Below are positions 33,200 to 44,025 of a stretch of DNA of 64,000 nt, piece after piece (position 1 is the first letter of the stretch; every line of letters begins with the position of its first letter). The stretch comes from Arthrobacter sp. Leaf69 (GTDB taxonomy: Bacteria > Actinomycetota > Actinomycetes > Actinomycetales > Micrococcaceae), in contig NZ_LMLR01000011.1 of the NCBI RefSeq assembly GCF_001422645.1, forward strand, positions 1-64,000, read 5' to 3'. The notes under the pieces were generated by a model, which was not told the origin of the DNA, did no database searches, and was given only the letters and a program-made list of their open reading frames with translations. Position numbers and translations under genes: made by a program.

Positions 33200-34609
33200 T
33201 CAGCGGTCCTTCGGGGACGCTGCGCCCGGGACGCCTACTGCGGCGGCCTGGACCTCGGCGACCTTGTCCACCGATTCCCGCATGGCGGGCCAGTTCTCCG
33301 TGGCGGCACGGACGGCGTCGGGCACCAGGATCAGGTTGGCGGCCGACAAGGCGCGTTCCTGCTCGCCGGGTTCGGGCACGAACTGCCCCTTCGACAGGAC
33401 AGTGATGCCCGATTCGGTGACCTTGAAGCCGCGGGACCGGTCCAGATCGGCGTCGAGGCCGATCGCTGCGCCCGCCGGGACCTTGACGTTCTTGTCGATG
33501 ATGGCGCGCTTGACGACGGCCCCCGCACCGATGTTGACCTTGTCCATGAGGACGGAGTCCAGCACCCGGCTGGACGTACCGACGTAGACGTCGTTGGACA
33601 GCACGGAGCCTTCCACGATGCCGCCGGAGATCACGACCCCGCTGGCGACGATCGAATCCAAGGCCGTGCCCACGGTGTTCTTCTGGCCGCGCACGAACTT
33701 GGCCGGCGGGGAGATGCTCTGCCGCGTGTAGATGGGCCATTCGGAGTTGTACAGGTTGAACACCGGCACGGGCGAGATGAGGTCCATGTGCGCGTCGTAG
33801 AACGAGTCGATGGTGCCGACGTCGCGCCAGTAGGTGCGGTCGCGTTCGGTGGAGCCGGGGATCTCGTTCAGGGTGAAGTCGTAGACACCGGCCTCTCCCT
33901 TGTCCACGAAGTAGGGAATGATGTCACCGCCCATGTCGTGCTTGGTGTCCAGGCGCTCGGCGTCGACGTGCAGGGCCTCGACGAGGGCGTCGGCGTCGAA
34001 GACGTAGTTGCCCATGGAGGCGAGGAACTGGCTGGGATCAGCGGCCAGGCCCGGCGTGGAGGATGGCTTCTCGACGAAGGCCGCGATCTTCTCCGGGTTT
34101 TCCTGGTCCACTTCGATGACACCGAACTGGTCGGCCATGTGCAGCGGCTGGCGGACGGCGGCGACGGTGGCCTTGGCGCCGCTGGCGACGTGCTGGTCCA
34201 CCATCTGGGCAAAGTCCATCCGGTAGACGTGGTCTGCGCCCACAACCACCACGATGTCCGGGTTGGCATCATGGATCAGGTTCAGGGACTGGTAGATGGC
34301 GTTGGCGCTGCCGAGGAACCAGCTCTTGCCCACACGCTGCTGCGCAGGGACGGAGGCGATGTAATTGCCCAGCTGGGTGGACATCCGCCAGGTCTCGGAA
34401 ATATGGCGGTCCAGGCTGTGCGACTTGTATTGCGTCAGCACAACGATCTGCAAGTAGCGGGAATTGACCAGGTTGGACAACGCAAAGTCAATGAGCCGGT
34501 AGCTTCCTGCGAACGGGACGCCGGGCTTGGCCCGGTCCGCCGTCAGTGGCATGAGCCGGTTTCCCTCGCCGCCTGCAAGGACAATAGCCAGAACTTTCTT
34601 ATTCGGCAT
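33200..34609 (-). CDS. glgC: glucose-1-phosphate adenylyltransferase
   Basis: About 469 residues from ATG 34609, with CAGGAG about 10 bases upstream; the frame is open to 34672 but has no better start. The pyrophosphorylase signature [18 protein letters not shown] is at residue 10, and [10 protein letters not shown] lies in the catalytic core. The left-handed beta-helix makes the C-terminal third ([20 protein letters not shown] and [14 protein letters not shown]). It makes ADP-glucose for glycogen, trehalose or maltose-1-phosphate routes. Divergent from glgA. Confidence 0.96.
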
Positions 34610-34710
34610 GGTGATCGCTCCTGAACGCCTTTGTACTTCCCCAAACAGTCCGGCACGCCCGAACGTCTTCACACTAGATCAGTTCCACCGTAACGACTAC
34701 CTTGGGGTTT

Positions 34711-35916
34711 GTGCGTATAGACATTGTGACCAAAGAATTCCCGCCCGAAATCTATGGCGGCGCCGGGGTCCACGTGGCCGAACTCAGCCGGGTGCTCGCC
34801 CAGCACGTGGATCTGCAGGTGCGCGCCTTCGGCGCGCCCCGTGAACCGGGGTACCACGGCGCGACGGTCACGTCCTACGCCGTGCCCGAGGACCTTTCCG
34901 GGGCGAACGCCGCAGTGCAGACCCTGGGGGTGGACCTGCGGATCGTTCCGGACATCGCCGGCGCGGACCTGGTGCACTCGCACACGTGGTATGCCAACAT
35001 GGCCGGGCACATCGCCTCGCTGCTGCACGGCATTCCGCACGTGCTCAGCGCGCACAGCCTCGAGCCGCTGCGTCCGTGGAAGGCCGAGCAGCTCGGCGGC
35101 GGCTACGCGCTGTCCTCCTGGGTGGAAAAAACCGCCTACGAGGCCGCGGCCGCGATCATCGCCGTCTCCGAGGGCATGCGCCAGGACATTCTCCGCAGCT
35201 ACCCCGAGGTTGACCCCGCCAAGGTCAAGGTGGTCCACAACGGGATCGACGTGAGCCTCTGGAACCGGGACGAGGGCGACGACGTCGTGCGCGCCCTGGG
35301 GATCGACCCGGACCGGCCGAGCGTGGTCTTCGTAGGCCGCAACACGCGCCAAAAGGGTGTGCCCTACCTGCTCCGAGCGGCCGCCAAGCTGCCGGCCGAC
35401 GTCCAGCTGGTGCTGTGCCTCGGCGCCGCTGACACCCCAGAGCTCGCGGCCGAAACCGCCCGCCTGATCGAGGAGCTGCAGACCCAGCGCGGCGGTGTGA
35501 TCCTGGTGGAGCGGATGCTGCCGCGGAACGAACTCATCCAGGTCCTCAGCCACGCCACAGCGTTCGCCTGCCCGTCGATCTACGAACCGCTCGGAATCGT
35601 CAACCTGGAGGCCATGGCCTGCGGCGCCGCCGTTGTGGCCAGCGCCACCGGCGGAATCCCCGAGGTGGTCCAGCACGGTGAGACCGGCCTGCTGGTGGGC
35701 ATCGAGCAGGTCACGGACGGGACCGGCACTCCGCTGGACCCGGAGAAGTTTGTCACCGAATTCGCCGCTGCCCTGACCGAGGTGGTGTCCGATCCGGAAA
35801 GGGCCCGCGCCATGGGACAGGCCGGACGCCGCCGGGCGGAGGAGCACTTCTCCTGGGAATCGATCACGGAGACCACCCTGGAGGTCTACCGCTCGGTGCT
35901 CCCCGAGGGTTCCTGA
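34711..35916 (+). CDS. glgA: glycogen synthase, actinobacterial GT4 type
   Basis: About 401 residues from GTG 34711 (a TTG at 34702 adds three). N-terminal KEFPPEIYGGAGVHVAEL is typical of the actinobacterial GlgA/GlgM group. The GT4 donor site has IYEPLGIVNLEAMACG. It transfers glucose from ADP-glucose to a glucan; in mycobacteria related enzymes make maltose-1-phosphate, so that product is also possible. Divergent from glgC with about 100 bases between starts, so one control region may serve both. Confidence 0.93.
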   Translation: MRIDIVTKEFPPEIYGGAGVHVAELSRVLAQHVDLQVRAFGAPREPGYHGATVTSYAVPEDLSGANAAVQTLGVDLRIVPDIAGADLVHSHTWYANMAGHIASLLHGIPHVLSAHSLEPLRPWKAEQLGGGYALSSWVEKTAYEAAAAIIAVSEGMRQDILRSYPEVDPAKVKVVHNGIDVSLWNRDEGDDVVRALGIDPDRPSVVFVGRNTRQKGVPYLLRAAAKLPADVQLVLCLGAADTPELAAETARLIEELQTQRGGVILVERMLPRNELIQVLSHATAFACPSIYEPLGIVNLEAMACGAAVVASATGGIPEVVQHGETGLLVGIEQVTDGTGTPLDPEKFVTEFAAALTEVVSDPERARAMGQAGRRRAEEHFSWESITETTLEVYRSVLPEGS

Positions 35917-36014: not shown

Positions 36015-38183
36015 TCACTGTGCCTTTGTAGCGCGGGTCTTTCGGGCGAGCAGGATTTTCTCGTCCACCGGTGCGTCGCCGCTGGCACGCTGCCGGCGGA
36101 AGTACTCGCGGGCCTCGTCCTGGCGGACCTTTTCGGCGCCCGTGGCGATCTCGGCACGGAGATGTTCAGGGCCGAAGCCGAAAGCGTCCACCAGGTCCAG
36201 GGCGTGCGGGCGGATTTTCACCAGCAGCCGGTTGATGTAGTCGCCCACGGTCCGGGCGCGCTGCATCGAGAGGCGGCCGTTCATCAGGTACCAGGACAGG
36301 TTCTCCTCGATCAGGGACAGGCCGAAGAGGTCGCGAAGCCAAGTCAGGACTTTTTTGGTGCCCGGGTCCGTGACCTTCCCCAGCGCTTCCGTGAAGGCTT
36401 CCCACTGCAGCAGTTCGGCGTGCGCCTGGGCGGCTTCGATGAGTTCGTTCTGGTGGCTGTTGAACAGCGCGGCGCCCTGCTGCTGCGGCAGCTTGCCGGC
36501 GCCTTTCAGGGCCGAGCCGACTTCGGCGACCATGGTCTGGACACGGTCGGTCAGCAGCGCGCGCTGGCTCGCTTCGTCCTTGATCGCGATGGCAGCTTTC
36601 TGCACCGAACCGGTGTCCGCCATGAACTGCGCCACTCCGCGAAGGCCGGTCCGGTGGATGGCGGCGTCGGTGGCCTGGCCGACGACGTAGCGGGCCAGCA
36701 CACCGAAGTTCACGCTGCGGAATTCCTTGGCGTAGTCGGCGAGCAGCCGCTTGGCAACAAGCTGCAGCAGGACGGTGTTGTCGCCTTCGAACGTGGCATA
36801 GACGTCCAGGTCCGCGCGCAGCGAGGCGAAGCGGTTCTCGATCAGGAAGCCGGCGCCGCCGCAGGCCTCGCGGCATTCCTGCAGGGTGTCGAGGGCGTGC
36901 CAGGTGCTGAGCGGCTTGAGCGCCGCCGCGAGGGTTTCCAGGTCCTGGCGGTCCTCATCCGTATCCGTGCGGCCGGAGAAGACGTCGTCGAACTTCTGCA
37001 GCAACTGTTCGCTGGCGAAGCCCGCGGCGTAGGTCGTCGCGAGGCGCGTGAACAGCCGGCGCTGGTGCCGCTGGTAGTCCAGCAGCACTTCCTCGTCGGT
37101 CTGGGAGGAGGCGTTGAACTGGCGGCGCTCCGTGGCGTACTGGATGGCTGTCTTCAAAGCCAGCTTCGACGCGGTGACAGCGGCGCCGTCGAGGGAGACG
37201 CGGCCCTGGACCAGGGTGCCGAGCATAGTGAAGAAGCGGCGGCCCGGGCTGGCGATGGGGGACCTGTAGCTGCCGTCGGCGTCGACGTTGCCGTAGCGGT
37301 TCAGCAGGTTGGTGCGCGGGATCCGGACGTGCGTGAAGTGCAGCCGGCCGTTGTCGATGCCGTTGAGGCCACCCTTGACGCCGTCGTCCTCGCCGCCGAT
37401 TCCGGGCAGGAATTCCTTGGTTTCGGGATCGCGGAGGTCCATGTAGAAGGCGTGGACGCCGTGGTTCACGCCCTGCGTCACCAGCTGGGCGAAGACCACC
37501 GCGGCGAGGCCGTCCACGGCGGCGTTCCCGATGTAGTCCTTCCACGCGGCACGGAACGGTGTGTGCACCACGAACTCCTCCGTGGCGGGGTCATACGTGG
37601 CGGTGGTGGCGATGCTGGCGACGTCCGAGCCGTGCCCGGTCTCGGTCATGGCAAAGCAGCCGGGAATGTCCAGGCTCATGATGCCGGGGAGCCATTTCCC
37701 GTGGTGCTCCTCCGTGCCGAGGTGGTTCACGGCGGAGCCGAACAGGCCCCACTGGACGCCGGCTTTGATCTGCAGTGAGGGGTCGGCGATGACGAGTTCC
37801 TGGAAACCGGCCACGTTGCCGCCGTGTTCGTCAGCGCCCCCGACGGACACGGGGAAGGCGCGGTGCACCGCGCCGTTTTCCACCAGGATCTTGAGCTGGC
37901 CGAATGCACGCTGGCGGTGCTCGGTGTGGGTCAGGCCCTCTGTCTTGTGCAGCTCCGGCCGGCCGGCGAGCGCCCGGGAGGCACGGCGGGTCTCGGCCCA
38001 CTTGCCCAGGAGCAGTTCGCCGAGGGCAGCGACGTCGACCACGGGGGCCGGCGTCCCGGACGAGCTCCCCGCGGCGGCCGGCGCCGGGGCCGATGCGGGG
38101 CGGGAAGCGGCGGTGCGGGCTGTCGTGTTACGGACGGTGTTCTCGGGGGCTTCGCCCCACTGGCGGTCTGCAAGTTCGGTCAT
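36015..38183 (-). CDS. large acyl-CoA dehydrogenase/oxidase (FadE5-like)
   Basis: About 722 residues from ATG 38183, preceded by AAGAAGGA. The first 45 residues are Ala/Pro-rich. The dehydrogenase core has CFAMTETGHGSDVASIAT, the FAD-domain ATERRQFNASSQ and the C-terminal helices ECREACGGAGFLIENRF. It is longer than standard acyl-CoA dehydrogenases (about 390 residues) and closer to FadE5-type or acyl-CoA oxidase forms. It oxidises acyl-CoA to enoyl-CoA using FAD. Its start overlaps the stop of the upstream TetR gene by four bases, so both are co-transcribed. The gene set around it matches mycobacterial fadE5-fadA2-fabG4-htdX, here with a regulator added. Confidence 0.9.
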   Translation of the reverse strand: MTELADRQWGEAPENTVRNTTARTAASRPASAPAPAAAGSSSGTPAPVVDVAALGELLLGKWAETRRASRALAGRPELHKTEGLTHTEHRQRAFGQLKILVENGAVHRAFPVSVGGADEHGGNVAGFQELVIADPSLQIKAGVQWGLFGSAVNHLGTEEHHGKWLPGIMSLDIPGCFAMTETGHGSDVASIATTATYDPATEEFVVHTPFRAAWKDYIGNAAVDGLAAVVFAQLVTQGVNHGVHAFYMDLRDPETKEFLPGIGGEDDGVKGGLNGIDNGRLHFTHVRIPRTNLLNRYGNVDADGSYRSPIASPGRRFFTMLGTLVQGRVSLDGAAVTASKLALKTAIQYATERRQFNASSQTDEEVLLDYQRHQRRLFTRLATTYAAGFASEQLLQKFDDVFSGRTDTDEDRQDLETLAAALKPLSTWHALDTLQECREACGGAGFLIENRFASLRADLDVYATFEGDNTVLLQLVAKRLLADYAKEFRSVNFGVLARYVVGQATDAAIHRTGLRGVAQFMADTGSVQKAAIAIKDEASQRALLTDRVQTMVAEVGSALKGAGKLPQQQGAALFNSHQNELIEAAQAHAELLQWEAFTEALGKVTDPGTKKVLTWLRDLFGLSLIEENLSWYLMNGRLSMQRARTVGDYINRLLVKIRPHALDLVDAFGFGPEHLRAEIATGAEKVRQDEAREYFRRQRASGDAPVDEKILLARKTRATKAQ

Positions 38184-38953
38184 GTCGATTCCTTCTTTGG
38201 TTCTGACAAAGGCGGTGCTGAAGTCGGTGTTGCTCGGCTCGGGGCTGCCGTGCGCAGCTCGGGGGCGAGGCCGAGGCACAGCCAGTCGGTAATCTGGCGT
38301 GCCATCGCTTCCTGCCCGGGCTTGGACGGGGACTCCGGGCTGGCGAGCCATTGTTCGCCGGCGTTCCGGACCAGGCCGATCGCCGCGTTCGGCCAGTAGC
38401 CAATCACGGCCTCGCGCCCCGCCGAGTCGCCCAAGTGGCTGCGCATGGGGCGGGCGATCATGTCGCTGATCGACGCGAAGAAGTGGCCCAGGGCGCCGTC
38501 GGTGGCGATGGTGCCGTTGGTGGCTCCCGTATCGCCGGGGGTGTAGCGCGTCACGAAGGCGTACACGTTCGGGCTGGTCTCAGCCATCTGAAGGTAGGCG
38601 GAGACCATGGCGAACAGTCCCTCGCGGGGAGTTTGTGCGCTCTGCGCGGCTTCCTGGATCCGGCGCTGCATCTGGCTCAGCACCACTTCGCCCACGGCCT
38701 GCTGCAGCCCGGCTTTGTCCCCGAAGTACCGGTAGAACACGGATTTCGAGGTACCCGCGGCGGCGGCAATGTCCTCCATGGACGCGTCACTGCCGAGCGC
38801 GTGCACGGCCTTCCGGGCCGACTTGATGAGCTCCCGGCGGCGCTCTTCGCGATGCGACTGCCAGCGCGAGGCGCGGCCGTCCACACTGCCGGCGCGGGCA
38901 CTGGGGGAGTCGGCGGCGCTTCCGCCGGGAAGGCCGGGCTGGGGGATGTTCAC
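38180..38953 (-). CDS. TetR family regulator of the acyl-CoA gene set
   Basis: 257 residues. HTH near residues 57-77 (SMEDIAAAAGTSKSVFYRYF), followed by an effector domain. The GTG start lies directly next to the operator at 38954, so the transcript is leaderless or the true start is further in (GTG 38884 is possible). It overlaps the acyl-CoA dehydrogenase gene by four bases. Probably represses its own operon and the divergent thiolase operon, responding to an acyl-CoA. Confidence 0.92.
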   Translation of the reverse strand: MNIPQPGLPGGSAADSPSARAGSVDGRASRWQSHREERRRELIKSARKAVHALGSDASMEDIAAAAGTSKSVFYRYFGDKAGLQQAVGEVVLSQMQRRIQEAAQSAQTPREGLFAMVSAYLQMAETSPNVYAFVTRYTPGDTGATNGTIATDGALGHFFASISDMIARPMRSHLGDSAGREAVIGYWPNAAIGLVRNAGEQWLASPESPSKPGQEAMARQITDWLCLGLAPELRTAAPSRATPTSAPPLSEPKKEST

Positions 38954-38984
38954 GATACCCAGCGTATCAGGTACGCTGGGTATC
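38954..38984. promoter_or_regulatory. perfect palindromic operator for the divergent TetR/thiolase operons
   Basis: Arms GATACCCAGCGTA and TACGCTGGGTATC are exact reverse complements, 13 bases each, around TCAGG. The site sits between the TetR start (38953) and the thiolase start (39016), the only such long exact palindrome in this gap, so it is the likely TetR binding site for both promoters. Confidence 0.85.
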
Positions 38985-39015
38985 GGTAACCCGCTTTGAT
39001 CGAAGGAGACAGCCC

Positions 39016-40452
39016 ATGTCCGTCAACGGACAGTCCGCACCCGGACCAAAGGAATCGACCCGCGCAGCGACGCCCCCGGCAGGCAAAGGCGCCGGCGTGC
39101 CAACGGCAGAACCGGCCGCAGGCACAGCAACCGGACCGGCCGCTTCCCACCTTCCGCAGGTTCGCAGGGCGGTCATCGTGGGCGGCAACCGCATTCCCTT
39201 TGCCCGGACCGGGGGCGCCTACACCAAGTCCTCCAACCAGGACATGCTGACAGCGGCCCTGGACGGGCTCATCGCCCGTTTCGGGCTGCAGGACGAGCGC
39301 ATTGGGGAAGTTGCTGCCGGCGCCGTGCTCAAACACTCCCGTGACTTCAACCTGACACGCGAAGCCGTGCTCGGCTCCGCGCTCTCCGCAGAGACGCCGG
39401 CGTACGATCTGCAGCAGGCGTGCGCCACCGGGCTGGAAACGGTCCTGGGCCTCGCCAACAAAATCAAGCTCGGCCAGATCGATTCAGCCATCGCCGGCGG
39501 CGTGGACTCCGCCTCGGACGCCCCCATCGCCGTGAGCGAGGGCCTGCGCGAGGTGCTCCTTGACCTCAACCGCGCCAAGACGCTGCCGCAGCGGCTCCAG
39601 GTCCTCAGCCGGCTCCGGCCCAAGGACCTCTCCCCGGATGCCCCCAACACCGGCGAACCGCGCACCGGCCTGTCCATGGGAGAGCACCAGGCGCTCACCA
39701 CTGCGCAGTGGAAGATCACCCGGGAGGCCCAGGATGAGCTGGCCTTCAACAGCCACCGCAACCTCGCCGCCGCCTACGACGGCGGCTTCTTCGATGACCT
39801 GCTCACCCCGTACCGCGGCCTCACCCGGGATTCCAACCTGCGCGCCGACACCAGCCTCGAAAAGCTGGCCACCCTGAAGCCCGTTTTTGGCAAGAGCCTG
39901 GGTTCCGCGGCGACCATGACGGCGGGCAACTCCACTCCGCTGACTGACGGCGCCTCCACCGTGCTGCTCGCCTCGGAGGAGTGGGCCGACGCCCACGACC
40001 TGCCCAAGCTGGCCACGGTGCTCGACGGCGAGGCGGCGGCCGTCGACTTTGTCCACGGCAAGGACGGCCTCCTGATGGCACCCGCTTTCGCCGTGCCGCG
40101 CCTGCTGGCCCGCAACGGGCTCAGCCTCGACGACATCGACTTCTTCGAAATCCACGAGGCATTCGCCGGCACCGTGCTGAGCACCCTGGCAGCGTGGGAA
40201 GACGAGGAGTTCGGCCGCACCCGGCTGGGGCTGGACGGGGCCTTCGGCACCATCGACCGCTCCAGGCTCAACGTCAACGGGTCCTCGCTCGCGGCGGGCC
40301 ATCCCTTCGCGGCCACCGGCGGACGGATTGTCGCTTCGCTTGCGAAGATGCTCCACGCCAAGGGCCGCGTGGACGGCCGTCCGGCCCGCGGACTCATCTC
40401 CATCTGCGCCGCCGGCGGCCAGGGCGTCGTCGCCATTCTTGAAGCACACTAG
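39016..40452 (+). CDS. acetyl-CoA C-acyltransferase (thiolase), FadA2-like
   Basis: 478 residues. The N-terminal about 45 residues are low complexity, before VRRAVIVGGNRIPFARTGGA-like thiolase sequence. Catalytic Cys in LQQACATGLET, His in EIHEAFAGT, GHPFAATGGR and the second Cys in SICAAGGQG. AAGGAG at 39003. It cleaves or forms 3-ketoacyl-CoA. First gene of an operon with fabG4- and htdX-like genes, divergent from the TetR gene. Confidence 0.93.
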   Translation: MSVNGQSAPGPKESTRAATPPAGKGAGVPTAEPAAGTATGPAASHLPQVRRAVIVGGNRIPFARTGGAYTKSSNQDMLTAALDGLIARFGLQDERIGEVAAGAVLKHSRDFNLTREAVLGSALSAETPAYDLQQACATGLETVLGLANKIKLGQIDSAIAGGVDSASDAPIAVSEGLREVLLDLNRAKTLPQRLQVLSRLRPKDLSPDAPNTGEPRTGLSMGEHQALTTAQWKITREAQDELAFNSHRNLAAAYDGGFFDDLLTPYRGLTRDSNLRADTSLEKLATLKPVFGKSLGSAATMTAGNSTPLTDGASTVLLASEEWADAHDLPKLATVLDGEAAAVDFVHGKDGLLMAPAFAVPRLLARNGLSLDDIDFFEIHEAFAGTVLSTLAAWEDEEFGRTRLGLDGAFGTIDRSRLNVNGSSLAAGHPFAATGGRIVASLAKMLHAKGRVDGRPARGLISICAAGGQGVVAILEAH

Positions 40453-40461
40453 GGGGACCCG

Positions 40462-41817
40462 ATGACCGACAAATACACCCAATTCGTGAGCCGCAGCCCG
40501 GGCAGGGACATCGCCCGGAAACTTGGGCTGCCCCAGCCGGTGGTGTTGAGGCGCCACAAGCCGGGCCAGCCGCTCATCACCGGACCCGTACTGGTCCAGG
40601 GGACCGGCACGGGAGCCGACGAGCTGGCCTCGACCCTGCTGGCCTGGGATCTCGACGTGCGCCGGCATGCCGTGCCCAAAGAGAAGCTCGGCGCCATCAT
40701 CGTGGTGCTTGACGAACTGGCCCGCCCCGAGGACCTCGCGCGGCCCGTGCTCACCGCCGCCACGTCCCTCCGGGACCTGGCACCCAATGCCCGTGTCATC
40801 ACCGTCTCCCGTGCTGCATCCGACAGTGCAGACCCAGCCGCTGCAGACCCTGCCTCCGCCGCGGCCCGGCAGGGAGTGGACGGGCTGCTCCGCTCGCTCG
40901 CCAAGGAGCTCCGCGCCGGCGCCACCGCCAACGGCATCCTGCTCGCGGGCGGCGCCGGAACCACCAGCCCCAGTACGCTCGGTGCCCTCCGGTTCTTCCT
41001 TTCCGGCCGTTCCGCGTTCGTCGACGGTCAGTTCCTCACCGTGAGCTCCGCGGAAGGACAGCTGCCGGCCGACGCCGAGAAGCCCCTGGCGGGTAAGGTC
41101 GCCGTCGTGACCGGGGCCGCGCGGGGAATCGGCGCCGCGATTGCCCGCACCCTGCGCCGGGACGGCGCCACAGTGGTCGTCGTCGATATCCCGGCGGCAG
41201 GGGACCACCTTGCCGCGGTGGCCAACGAGGTGCACGGCACCGCCCTGCAGCTGGACATCACCCGGGAGGACGCCGGACAGCGGATCATCGACCACGCCGT
41301 GGAACGCCACGGACGCCTGGACATTGTGATCCACAACGCCGGCATCACCCGGGACAAACTGCTGGCCAATATGGACCAGAGCCGCTGGGACTCCGTGATC
41401 GCGGTCAACATCGCCGCGCAGTTGCGGATCAACGAGGCGCTGCTGGGCTCGCAGCACTTCCGGGAGTCACCGCGGATCGTCTCCGTGGCCTCCACCAGCG
41501 GCATCGCCGGAAACCGCGGCCAGACCAACTATGCCGCCTCGAAGGGCGGTGTCATGGGCATGGTCCGGGCCACGGCTCCTCTGCTCAGTGTGCATGGCGG
41601 TTCCATCAACGCCGTCGCCCCGGGCTTCATCGAGACCGAGATGACAGCGAAGATCCCCTTCGCCACCCGCGAGATCGCCCGCAGGCTCAACAGCCTGCAG
41701 CAGGGCGGCCGTCCCGGCGATGTGGCCGAAGCCATCGCGTTCCTGGCCAGTGACGCGGCAGGGGGCATCTCCGGCGAGGTACTGCGTGTGTGCGGCCAGA
41801 ACCTGGTGGGAGCATGA
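40462..41817 (+). CDS. 3-oxoacyl reductase, FabG4-type (high molecular weight)
   Basis: 451 residues. An N-terminal flavodoxin-like region of about 200 residues precedes the SDR domain, as in mycobacterial FabG4 (about 450 residues). SDR motifs: TGAARGIGAAIARTL, HNAGIT, catalytic Ser in ASTSGIAG and Tyr-Lys in YAASKGGVMG. Reduces 3-oxoacyl-CoA with NADH in the studied FabG4. Starts nine bases after the thiolase stop and overlaps the hydratase start by four bases. Confidence 0.92.
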   Translation: MTDKYTQFVSRSPGRDIARKLGLPQPVVLRRHKPGQPLITGPVLVQGTGTGADELASTLLAWDLDVRRHAVPKEKLGAIIVVLDELARPEDLARPVLTAATSLRDLAPNARVITVSRAASDSADPAAADPASAAARQGVDGLLRSLAKELRAGATANGILLAGGAGTTSPSTLGALRFFLSGRSAFVDGQFLTVSSAEGQLPADAEKPLAGKVAVVTGAARGIGAAIARTLRRDGATVVVVDIPAAGDHLAAVANEVHGTALQLDITREDAGQRIIDHAVERHGRLDIVIHNAGITRDKLLANMDQSRWDSVIAVNIAAQLRINEALLGSQHFRESPRIVSVASTSGIAGNRGQTNYAASKGGVMGMVRATAPLLSVHGGSINAVAPGFIETEMTAKIPFATREIARRLNSLQQGGRPGDVAEAIAFLASDAAGGISGEVLRVCGQNLVGA

Positions 41818-42725
41818 CCCCATCCGGGCCCGTCATCCTGGGGGAGATGCCGTCGCTGTCGAAGCTGTACGTCAACGCGGCCGCCACCGCCGCCCGCCGC
41901 CGGGTCTTGGGAACCCATGCGGGGAACGGTCTCCCGGAGGCACGGCACGAGGTCCGCGGGGTGAAGGCGGCGGTGGAGAACCTCACGGCCTACCAGCACC
42001 TGATCGGCGAGACCGCCAGCGATGTGCTGCCCGCCGGCTTCATCCATGCGCTGGCGTTCCCGCTGGCCATGAGTGTGATGAACCGGGATGACTTCCCGCT
42101 GCCTCTGCTGGGCATGATCCATCTGGAAAACCGCGTGGTGCAGTCCGCGCCCCTGCGCTTTACGGAGGCCCTCGACGTCCGGGCATGGACGGAGAACCTG
42201 CGCGGGCACCGGTCCGGCACCCAGCTGGACGTCGTCACCGAAGTCGGCTGCGCGGGGAAGGACGCCGTGAGCTGGCGAGGTGTGTCGACCTATCTGGCGA
42301 AGGGTGTTTTCCTGCCCGGCATCGACAAGCCGACGGCCGCGCCGGCGGCGGCGGACTTTTCGGCGCCGGATCCCACCGCGCTGTGGCAACTCGGCGTCGA
42401 CACGGGCCGGGCCTACGCTGCCGTGTCCGGCGACTTCAACCCGATCCACCTGAGCGTCCTCTCGGCCAAGGCCCTGGGCATGCGGCGGTCCATCGCGCAC
42501 GGGATGTATCTCGCGTCGAGGGCACTGGCGGACGTGGGCGCCGTGAAGGGTGAAGCCTTCAGCTGGGACGTGGCCTTCGAGGCCCCGGTATTCCTGCCGG
42601 CACGGGTGGCGCTGGATATCAGTTCCGTACAGGACTCCGTGGGGGCGTGGCAGCGCTCCGACTATGTCGCCTGGAATTCGCGTTCCGGGCGCAGGCATTT
42701 CAGCGGAACGGTTGCCGCGCTCTAG
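41814..42725 (+). CDS. MaoC-like (R)-hydratase, HtdX-type
   Basis: 303 residues from ATG 41814 (ATGA overlap with the FabG4 gene). Hot-dog hydratase signature DFNPIHLSVLSAKALG and IAHGMYLASR lies in the C-terminal half; the N-terminal half is the second, degenerate hot-dog. It hydrates enoyl-CoA to (R)-3-hydroxyacyl-CoA. With FabG4, thiolase and the dehydrogenase it completes a cycle for acyl-CoA shortening or elongation. Confidence 0.9.
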   Translation: MTPSGPVILGEMPSLSKLYVNAAATAARRRVLGTHAGNGLPEARHEVRGVKAAVENLTAYQHLIGETASDVLPAGFIHALAFPLAMSVMNRDDFPLPLLGMIHLENRVVQSAPLRFTEALDVRAWTENLRGHRSGTQLDVVTEVGCAGKDAVSWRGVSTYLAKGVFLPGIDKPTAAPAAADFSAPDPTALWQLGVDTGRAYAAVSGDFNPIHLSVLSAKALGMRRSIAHGMYLASRALADVGAVKGEAFSWDVAFEAPVFLPARVALDISSVQDSVGAWQRSDYVAWNSRSGRRHFSGTVAAL

Positions 42726-42846: not shown

Positions 42847-43977
42847 CTACTGCCGGTCTGCTGACTCCTTCACCACACGCAGCATCCGGTGGAGGCTCAA
42901 CAGAATCGATTCAACGGCGCTGGGCGCACCGGTGGCAGCTTCCTCGCTGCCGACCCGTGCCGTCAGGGCCTTGACGGCAGCGTCAGCCTCAGCGCTCAGC
43001 TCGGCCTGCCGCTCCGGGCTTTCCTCCTCGACCGAACGCAGGACGTCGCCCACGGAAACCATGGCGTCGGCGAGTGGCGCGGCGTATTCATCCGGCACCA
43101 CAAAGGGGGTGTCCTTGGCCCAGATGACGTCCGAAAGCACCTGCGTCACGTCCTGGACGTGGAAGGTCACCCGTTCCAGGTCCCGCAGGTTGCGGTAGTC
43201 CTCGTCGATGTCGCGGGGATGGAGCCGGCGCCGGGGGTTTGCCCGCCGGCTGGCGTCCGCCTTCTCCACCGCGAGGCGGACGGACCGTGCGGACGATTCA
43301 AGCCCGTCGGAGCGTTTTGACCAGTCTTCGTGCTCCGGCGGCCAGCTCTCCTTCAGCGCCTTGGCCATGTCCCAGAGCTGCTGGGCGAGCGCCAGGCGCA
43401 GTTCGGCGATGCTGAGCTCCGCGGCGCGGAAGTGCAGCGGCGGGAACACCAGCAGGTTCACCAGTACGCCCACCGTGACCCCGGCGCCCATCTGGAGGAG
43501 GTAGCCGAAGGAGAACTGGTCCGGATTGTGGCCGCCGACCAGCAGGACCAGGAGCGCCGCCGTCGGGATCCAGTCCCGGCCCGCGCCGATCTTCGGGAGT
43601 CCGGCGAGGATGACGCCGAAAGCCATCACCACACCGACCGTCAACGGCGTGGGACTGCCGAGGATGAACAGCACAAAGGCCAGGCCGACGCCGATTGCCA
43701 GCCCCGCGAGCGTCTGGACGCCCTGCTTCATGGAACCGGCGACGTTCTCGTACATCGCCACCAGGGCGCCCAGCGGAGCGTAGTAGGGGTAGTCGGCTGC
43801 GGACCCCGGCATAAACGGGGCGATGGCGAACGCGATGCCCGCGGCCAGTCCTGCTTTGAGGGCCAGCTGCAGCCGGGGCCACAGCAGCGCCGAGCGGACG
43901 TTGCTGGCCGCGATCCGCCAGAGCCGCCGGACGAGTGAGGGGTGTCCGGCGTGGGTAGCCTCATCTGTAGTTGTCAC
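42847..43977 (-). CDS. FUSC/aromatic acid exporter family membrane protein
   Basis: About 376 residues from GTG 43977; a TTG at 44013 would add 12. About six hydrophobic segments occupy residues 25-175 (AGLAAGIAFAIAPF, GVGLAFVLFILG, AGVTVGVLVNLLVF), and a soluble helical C-terminal half with many Glu/Arg follows. Related proteins export aromatic acids or form membrane channels. Probably last gene in a minus-strand group with the serine hydrolase. Confidence 0.8.
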   Translation of the reverse strand: MTTTDEATHAGHPSLVRRLWRIAASNVRSALLWPRLQLALKAGLAAGIAFAIAPFMPGSAADYPYYAPLGALVAMYENVAGSMKQGVQTLAGLAIGVGLAFVLFILGSPTPLTVGVVMAFGVILAGLPKIGAGRDWIPTAALLVLLVGGHNPDQFSFGYLLQMGAGVTVGVLVNLLVFPPLHFRAAELSIAELRLALAQQLWDMAKALKESWPPEHEDWSKRSDGLESSARSVRLAVEKADASRRANPRRRLHPRDIDEDYRNLRDLERVTFHVQDVTQVLSDVIWAKDTPFVVPDEYAAPLADAMVSVGDVLRSVEEESPERQAELSAEADAAVKALTARVGSEEAATGAPSAVESILLSLHRMLRVVKESADRQ

Positions 43978-44025
43978 CCGGTTCACCCTAGGGTGGGGAT
44001 GTTGCTGCGACAACTGGACGAACCC

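Follow-up and report, generated by a model that had tools for sequence, protein, structure and literature searches.

The question raised by this locus is whether a long palindrome, lying between two divergent groups of acyl-CoA genes, is the operator through which a single TetR-family regulator controls both groups. The palindrome is at 38954..38984 of the window, by which we mean the whole stretch of 64,000 nucleotides of Arthrobacter sp. Leaf69 that was analysed. This predicted operator is 31 bp long, has no assigned strand, and carries a row of TAC and GTA triplets at 8-bp steps. It consists of a left arm GATACCCAGCGTA (38954-38966), a centre TCAGG (38967-38971) and a right arm TACGCTGGGTATC (38972-38984). 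The preliminary description reported 13-base arms that are exact complements with a gap of five bases, placed beside the TetR start and shortly before the thiolase start, and the letters bear this out. The perfect arms are in fact 14 bases long, because C38953 pairs with G38985; the GTG of the TetR frame (38180-38953, minus strand) abuts the palindrome directly, and 31 bases separate the end of the palindrome from the thiolase ATG at 39016. Wider arms of 19 nt (38948-38966/38972-38990) are 89% complementary. When up to three mismatches are allowed, the palindrome pattern has one match in the window (mean 0.00 in 100 shuffles) and one in the whole host genome of 4.14 Mb. At the level of sequence, the palindrome and its adjacency are those of a palindromic operator near its own TetR gene.

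The gene on the left, on the minus strand, encodes the TetR-family regulator (38180..38953; 257 aa, with TetR_N and TetR_C_32 domains and a GTG start). It is followed by an acyl-CoA oxidase/dehydrogenase gene (ACOX/FadE-like, 36015..38183, minus strand), the ATG of which overlaps with the stop codon of tetR (ATGA); the two genes are therefore probably co-transcribed. On the right, on the plus strand, are genes for a thiolase (acetyl-CoA C-acetyltransferase, PRK09268; 39016..40452), a FabG4-like 3-oxoacyl reductase (PRK08261; 40462..41817) and a MaoC-domain hydratase/dehydratase (41790..42725). On the basis of their families, ACOX, thiolase, the FabG4-like protein and MaoC could together supply the four reactions of a beta-oxidation cycle. 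The gene set presumably resembles mycobacterial fadE5/fadA2/fabG4/htdX. Convergent with the MaoC gene is a gene for a membrane protein of the aromatic-acid-exporter/FUSC type (42847-44013, minus strand).

The palindrome is well conserved in the genus and its close relatives. Of 99 genomes, 77 had a TetR match (E<=1e-20), including 59 of the 61 from the genus. Fifty of these 59 genus loci were read, the window's own included, and in all 50 the 31-mer agrees with the consensus at 29-31 positions. The conserved block in these 50 loci is 43 bp long, TTAYYG...GTGAAC on the tetR strand, with a sharp drop on both sides. A further set of 80 named loci, the best 80 of at least 579 relatives, includes Arthrobacter, Pseudarthrobacter, Paenarthrobacter, Sinomonas, Kocuria, Citricoccus, Cellulomonas and others; among these best 80, the nearest by TetR is Arthrobacter sp. 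U41 strain DE0109 (94% identical). An order-level model matches near the start of the TetR match in all 80 (E<=0.01), a figure biased towards close relatives because the 80 are the best of at least 579. The genus and named sets, which overlap in part, together make 130 loci. One of these (L182) was omitted since its match falls below 24/31, the operator site there being found by the order-level model, and merging identical ones among the remaining 129 gave 120 distinct loci. All 13 arm positions are paired in 80 of the 120, and pairing falls to 7/13 in the most divergent. Arm changes mirrored on both sides are CTC/GAG in six loci and GGTACC/GGTACC in one, the others being one-armed. The central five bases, read on the tetR strand, are CCTGA in 119 loci and GCTGA in one.

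One locus (L168, NZ_JADHDY010000010.1) is labelled Sporosarcina beigongshangi, which is a Firmicute, and has a Micrococcaceae-like TetR (56% identical) together with the operator. The label points to a mislabelled genome, contamination or transfer.

Judged from the elements that can be read around it, the palindrome appears to form the centre of two divergent promoters that overlap. The putative -35 element of the thiolase gene, TTCACG (38949..38954, plus strand), includes the bases complementary to the GTG start codon of tetR, and is followed at a spacing of 17 bp by a putative -10 element of the TAnnnT type, TACGCT (38972..38977, plus strand), with a transcription start predicted at about 38985. 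For tetR, the putative -35 is TTACCG (38984..38989, minus strand) and the putative -10 is TACGCT (38961..38966, minus strand), only 7 nt before the GTG, which would make the transcript leaderless. The geometry TTnnCG-N17-TACGCT is found on both strands. A scan with the sigma-70 consensus gave no promoter at the site; the promoters described here were read by the looser rule TAnnnT for actinobacterial -10 elements, which both of them fit. The strand opposite the thiolase -35 reads GTGAAC in 108 of the 120 distinct loci, the remaining 12 having a closely similar sequence, and the tetR -35 is found as TTAYYG in 115 and is absent from five. In 18 order-level operators (described below), the place of the thiolase -10 has TAC in all 18 and TACnnT in 13, so that five are without the last T.

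The codon that touches the operator is GTG in 119 of the 120 distinct loci and ATG in one. The frame that it opens runs to a conserved DGR motif in 119 of them, despite a varying N-terminal length; the single exception, identified by reading, is L184. In a set of 38 more divergent loci, a TAnnnT sequence stands 5-8 nt before an in-frame ATG or GTG in 34, or in 28 of 31 distinct genomes since seven of the loci repeat a genome, compared with a background of 0.6% for any ATG or GTG in the same loci. (The set had 39 members, 20 of them chosen for high operator scores; L081 was omitted as the protein motif was not found.) This spacing points to a leaderless start, and we conclude that the tetR mRNA is probably leaderless. 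The exceptions (L032, L033/L083 and L086) have a short leader with a G-rich stretch resembling a ribosome site, and keep the operator core.

The protein belongs to the TetR family, with scores of 38.5 bits for PF00440 (cut-off 24) and 35.4 bits for PF19344 (cut-off 27). The AlphaFold prediction, based on 28 sequences, has a mean pLDDT of 78.4 and a pTM of 0.66, and is all-helical, matching the TetR fold. Its best structural match is FasR of M. tuberculosis (Z 17.0-17.6, with rmsd 3.3 over 185 at Z 17.6), and the next matches are tied at Z of about 15, among them Bacillus FadR (stearoyl-CoA, Z 15.3), EthR and 2hyt. Foldseek also places FasR first, followed by DarR, a nucleotide-binding TetR protein, with FadR fifth; in the sequence profile FasR is the second-best protein, after 2hyt. 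TetR proteins share their fold, and therefore structural rank says little about the ligand. On the model, an acyl-CoA ligand is plausible, and we think it reasonably likely that the ligand is a long-chain acyl-CoA. An N-terminal basic stretch, DGRxxRWxxHRxxRR, has its named residues invariant in both TetR alignments, and may serve as an arm that contacts DNA. Of the NCBIfam TetR models that match this protein, none scores above its cut-off, and this includes those for KstR and FasR.

The kind of switch proposed here is known, and three regulators offer a useful comparison. According to PMC1995591, KstR (Rv3574/MSMEG_6042) is an autoregulated mycobacterial TetR repressor of lipid degradation; its operator, in the gap to the fadE34 gene, is a palindrome overlapping a -10 element, and its regulon is one of lipid catabolism. 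The present system shares with KstR the TetR family and, as predicted here, autoregulation, a palindrome over a -10 and a lipid-catabolism regulon. It differs in that the KstR motif given there is TnnAACnnGTTnnA, whereas the site here is a 31-bp TAC/GTA row and is not a KstR operator, and in that 74-83 genes are predicted for KstR in the same source, against one locus found in the host genome here. The score with the KstR equivalog model is 20.5 bits against a cut-off of 280, so that by score the protein is not KstR. FasR (Rv3208; PDB 6o6n/6o6o/6o6p) is described in PMC7382501 as a TetR-type activator of fas-acpS, whose DNA binding is disrupted by acyl-CoA of C16 or longer. It thus activates genes for fatty-acid synthesis, whereas degradation genes adjoin the TetR gene here; the FasR equivalog score is 43.1 bits against a cut-off of 330, which again means that by score the protein is not FasR. 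In the oligonucleotide of the FasR crystal, as given in the same paper, an 8-bp alternating row is not evident by eye, whereas it is present here. Bacillus FadR (PDB 3whb/3whc/5gpc), a TetR regulator of fatty-acid degradation, has the same type of pathway and overall fold, and a stearoyl-CoA complex is listed for it; its identity to the protein described here is 14-15%, and as a structural match it is tied with EthR and other TetR proteins. The regulator would thus work like KstR, FasR and FadR, while by score it is neither KstR nor FasR. The arrangement of the genes is also familiar. For TetR-family regulators of Streptomyces, a divergent target with a gap of less than 200 bp predicts direct regulation, according to PMC3511530, and regulator and target are here likewise divergent, with a gap of less than 200 bp. 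The TetR/tetA pair has two 15-bp operators in that source, whereas here there is one composite site over both predicted promoters. No paper on this regulator or operator was recognised in the open-licence literature searched, where the exact core letters were also sought, nor were the operator rule and its spread found there.

On the basis of these observations, we infer a scheme in which binding, repression, the promoter elements, the leaderless start, the number of dimers and the ligand are all predictions. The palindrome would be both the operator and the core of the overlapping divergent promoters, with tetR-ACOX on the left and thiolase-FabG4-MaoC on the right. In the absence of ligand, one or two TetR dimers would occupy the TAC/GTA triplets and keep RNA polymerase away from both promoters; with both blocked, the regulator would repress itself and a complete acyl-CoA beta-oxidation set. 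Long-chain acyl-CoA would most likely loosen the dimer and so release both operons. We regard it as highly likely, from sequence evidence, that the palindrome is the TetR operator and gives shared control of both operons.

A different sign of regulation was also considered, namely that TetR acts as an activator of one or both operons, in the way that FasR acts on fas-acpS. The closest solved structure is indeed that of FasR, a TetR-type activator (PMC7382501), but the operator spans the spacer and the -10 of each predicted promoter and reaches its -35, a position in which a bound protein would block the polymerase. This makes activation unlikely. Activators normally sit upstream of the promoter.

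The window operator was aligned without gaps with the operators of 17 divergent loci, whose TetR proteins are 32-46% identical (alignment A2). The invariant positions of these 18 operators are mostly on TAC and GTA triplets that alternate every 8 bp. In the window the units are TAC 38956-38958, GTA 38964-38966, TAC 38972-38974 and GTA 38980-38982; the corresponding counts are eight of 18 for TAC at column 9, 16 for GTA at column 17, 18 for TAC at column 25 and 14 for GTA at column 33. Six of the 18 operators also have a fifth unit, GTA at column 1. Since the triplets alternate in this way, TCAGG forms the centre of a GTA-N5-TAC unit, and its own letters are conserved as well. The earlier reading of a 13-bp inverted repeat with a 5-base gap is correct in its letters and can be refined: the centre is no neutral spacer, and the site is a row of triplets more than a simple inverted repeat.

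A tentative proposal, to which we give somewhat less than even weight, is that the proteins of this TetR subfamily recognise not a single palindrome but a series of regularly repeated half-sites, with TAC and GTA alternating at 8-bp intervals over three to five units. Dimers would align along the row, and from one lineage to another the unit number and the place of the tetR promoter would change in step, by roughly one 16-bp repeat. In the Arthrobacter version the symmetry would be close enough for the start codon of the leaderless tetR mRNA to lie inside the opposite -35 box. Natural sites with three to five half-sites make the cooperation of TetR dimers on DNA directly testable, and the rule TAC-N5-GTA-N5-TAC-N5-GTA can be used to seek the regulon in many genomes. 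It may be added that in seven loci (L043, L045, L047, L048, L038, L040 and L046) the tetR -10 and the half-site row reach closer to tetR, by about one 16-bp repeat, than they do in the genus of the window.

A sequence-only model built from the 18 operators (R1) and a TetR alignment (A3) were both run on 198 sampled genomes of the order. With cut-offs of E<=0.02 for the operator and E<=1e-53 for the TetR orthologue, which were chosen after the lists were seen, the operator is present in 112 of the 113 genomes that have a TetR orthologue and in none of the 85 that do not. Removal of the 18 genomes used for the model leaves 94 of 95 against 0 of 85. When the operator cut-off is relaxed to E<=0.1, the numbers become 113 of 113 and 9 of 85, all nine having E >0.02. 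The one genome that has the orthologue and lacks the operator at the stricter cut-off (G132) has a weak site (E 0.048). The genome with the next-best TetR (G182, E 5e-46) has no operator, and counts against the association under a looser orthologue cut-off. The operator adjoins the TetR gene in 108 of 110 genomes compared, taking the best operator place among the matches listed (G132, G181 and the host genome are outside this set). In one of the two exceptions (G136) the best-scoring site is at another thiolase (L104), and a further site adjoins its TetR gene (L099); in the other (G237) the TetR gene is at a contig edge. At L099 (G136:C1:2648500-2654500), an HMG-CoA reductase gene is divergent from the TetR-ACOX pair.

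We therefore consider it very probable that the palindrome serves the neighbouring TetR gene as its operator. Regulator, operator and regulon of fatty-acid breakdown are thereby predicted for the order to which Arthrobacter and its relatives belong.

Co-occurrence and neighbourhood need to be separated here, because in 16 of the 18 divergent loci the TetR gene is divergent from a thiolase gene with FabG4 behind it, and ACOX is present in 15; with synteny kept in 16 of 18, neighbourhood and site are partly confounded. It might be argued from this that a different regulator binds the site, its place beside tetR being only a conserved neighbourhood. Against this stand the near-perfect co-occurrence of the site with the TetR orthologue, and the distant homologues. 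A 296-genome sample of the phylum supplied the 16 best homologue loci from outside the order. The TAC/GTA row beside the TetR homologue is complete in five of the 16, has three of four units in one and is absent from 10, and shuffled controls gave no case with three or more units in 640. In the 1.5-kb flanks of all 16 loci, nothing matched the thiolase or ACOX of the window (E<=1e-6). The full row is thus found beside five distant TetR homologues where those neighbours gave no match, and binding by another regulator is very improbable. When six of the 16 loci were read further out, the divergent neighbour proved to be an acyl-CoA dehydrogenase in two (L207 and L209), and the other four had unrelated or unresolved neighbours.

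The genome search for the same palindrome proposed in the preliminary description was carried out in several ways, and the full pattern, the triplet row, the inner 19 bases and model R1 all failed to give a second site in the host genome. The bare triplet row, at up to two mismatches, has the known site as its only match without mismatches, with nine others at two mismatches, where the reversed control gave 33. For the 19 inner bases of the operator, likewise at up to two mismatches, there were seven others at two, compared with six in the control. The next best match to R1 has E 5.96; this runner-up, C1:266079, lies inside an 872-aa open frame. The triplet match C13:315836 was taken as another system, as it has a different palindrome by eye; its flanks, also by eye, hold genes resembling ornithine cyclodeaminase and aldehyde dehydrogenase. 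Since no second site was found, the regulon in the host genome appears to be limited to this locus.

The situation is different in other genomes. Among the matches listed, eight sites in seven other genomes that are not adjacent to a TetR gene were examined (the site on G237:C26 was omitted, its TetR gene being at the contig edge), and all eight are beside acyl-CoA or thioester genes. Three are beside acyl-CoA dehydrogenases (L096, L097 and L103), three beside thiolases (L100, L102 and L104) and one beside an AMP-binding ligase (L101); the last (L098) has a 4HBT thioesterase on one side and a SnoaL-like gene on the other. At L100 there is a thiolase-FabG4 pair, 69% and 63% identical to that of the window, about 7 kb from the TetR-linked site. 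From these eight sites it seems probable that, in several lineages, further acyl-CoA genes are also under the control of this operator. Computation has thus established the site, its conservation, its co-occurrence with TetR and its further copies at acyl-CoA genes elsewhere. Conservation, co-occurrence, adjacency and these trans sites lend strong support to the original suggestion that one TetR regulator would govern both divergent acyl-CoA operons.

The least probable reading, that the palindrome acts as RNA, either as an intrinsic terminator or as a hairpin controlling translation of the thiolase mRNA, was set aside as the main role after a terminator scan and folding against shuffles: the strand does fold into a strong hairpin (z -3.68, equalled by one of 200 shuffles), but the scan found no terminator-like site, so that the idea of a palindrome conserved merely as a terminator is not supported either, the palindrome precedes both start codons and is surrounded by promoter-like elements, its central five bases are conserved, and the trans copies and distant homologues keep the triplets spaced at 8 bp and not long stems.

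It is worth adding that a second divergent pair lies near the tetR-ACOX genes. At 33200-35916 of the window, an ADP-glucose pyrophosphorylase-like gene (minus strand) is divergent from a glycogen-synthase-like gene (plus strand), both named from their translations; according to which start codon is chosen, 29 to about 90 bases lie between them.
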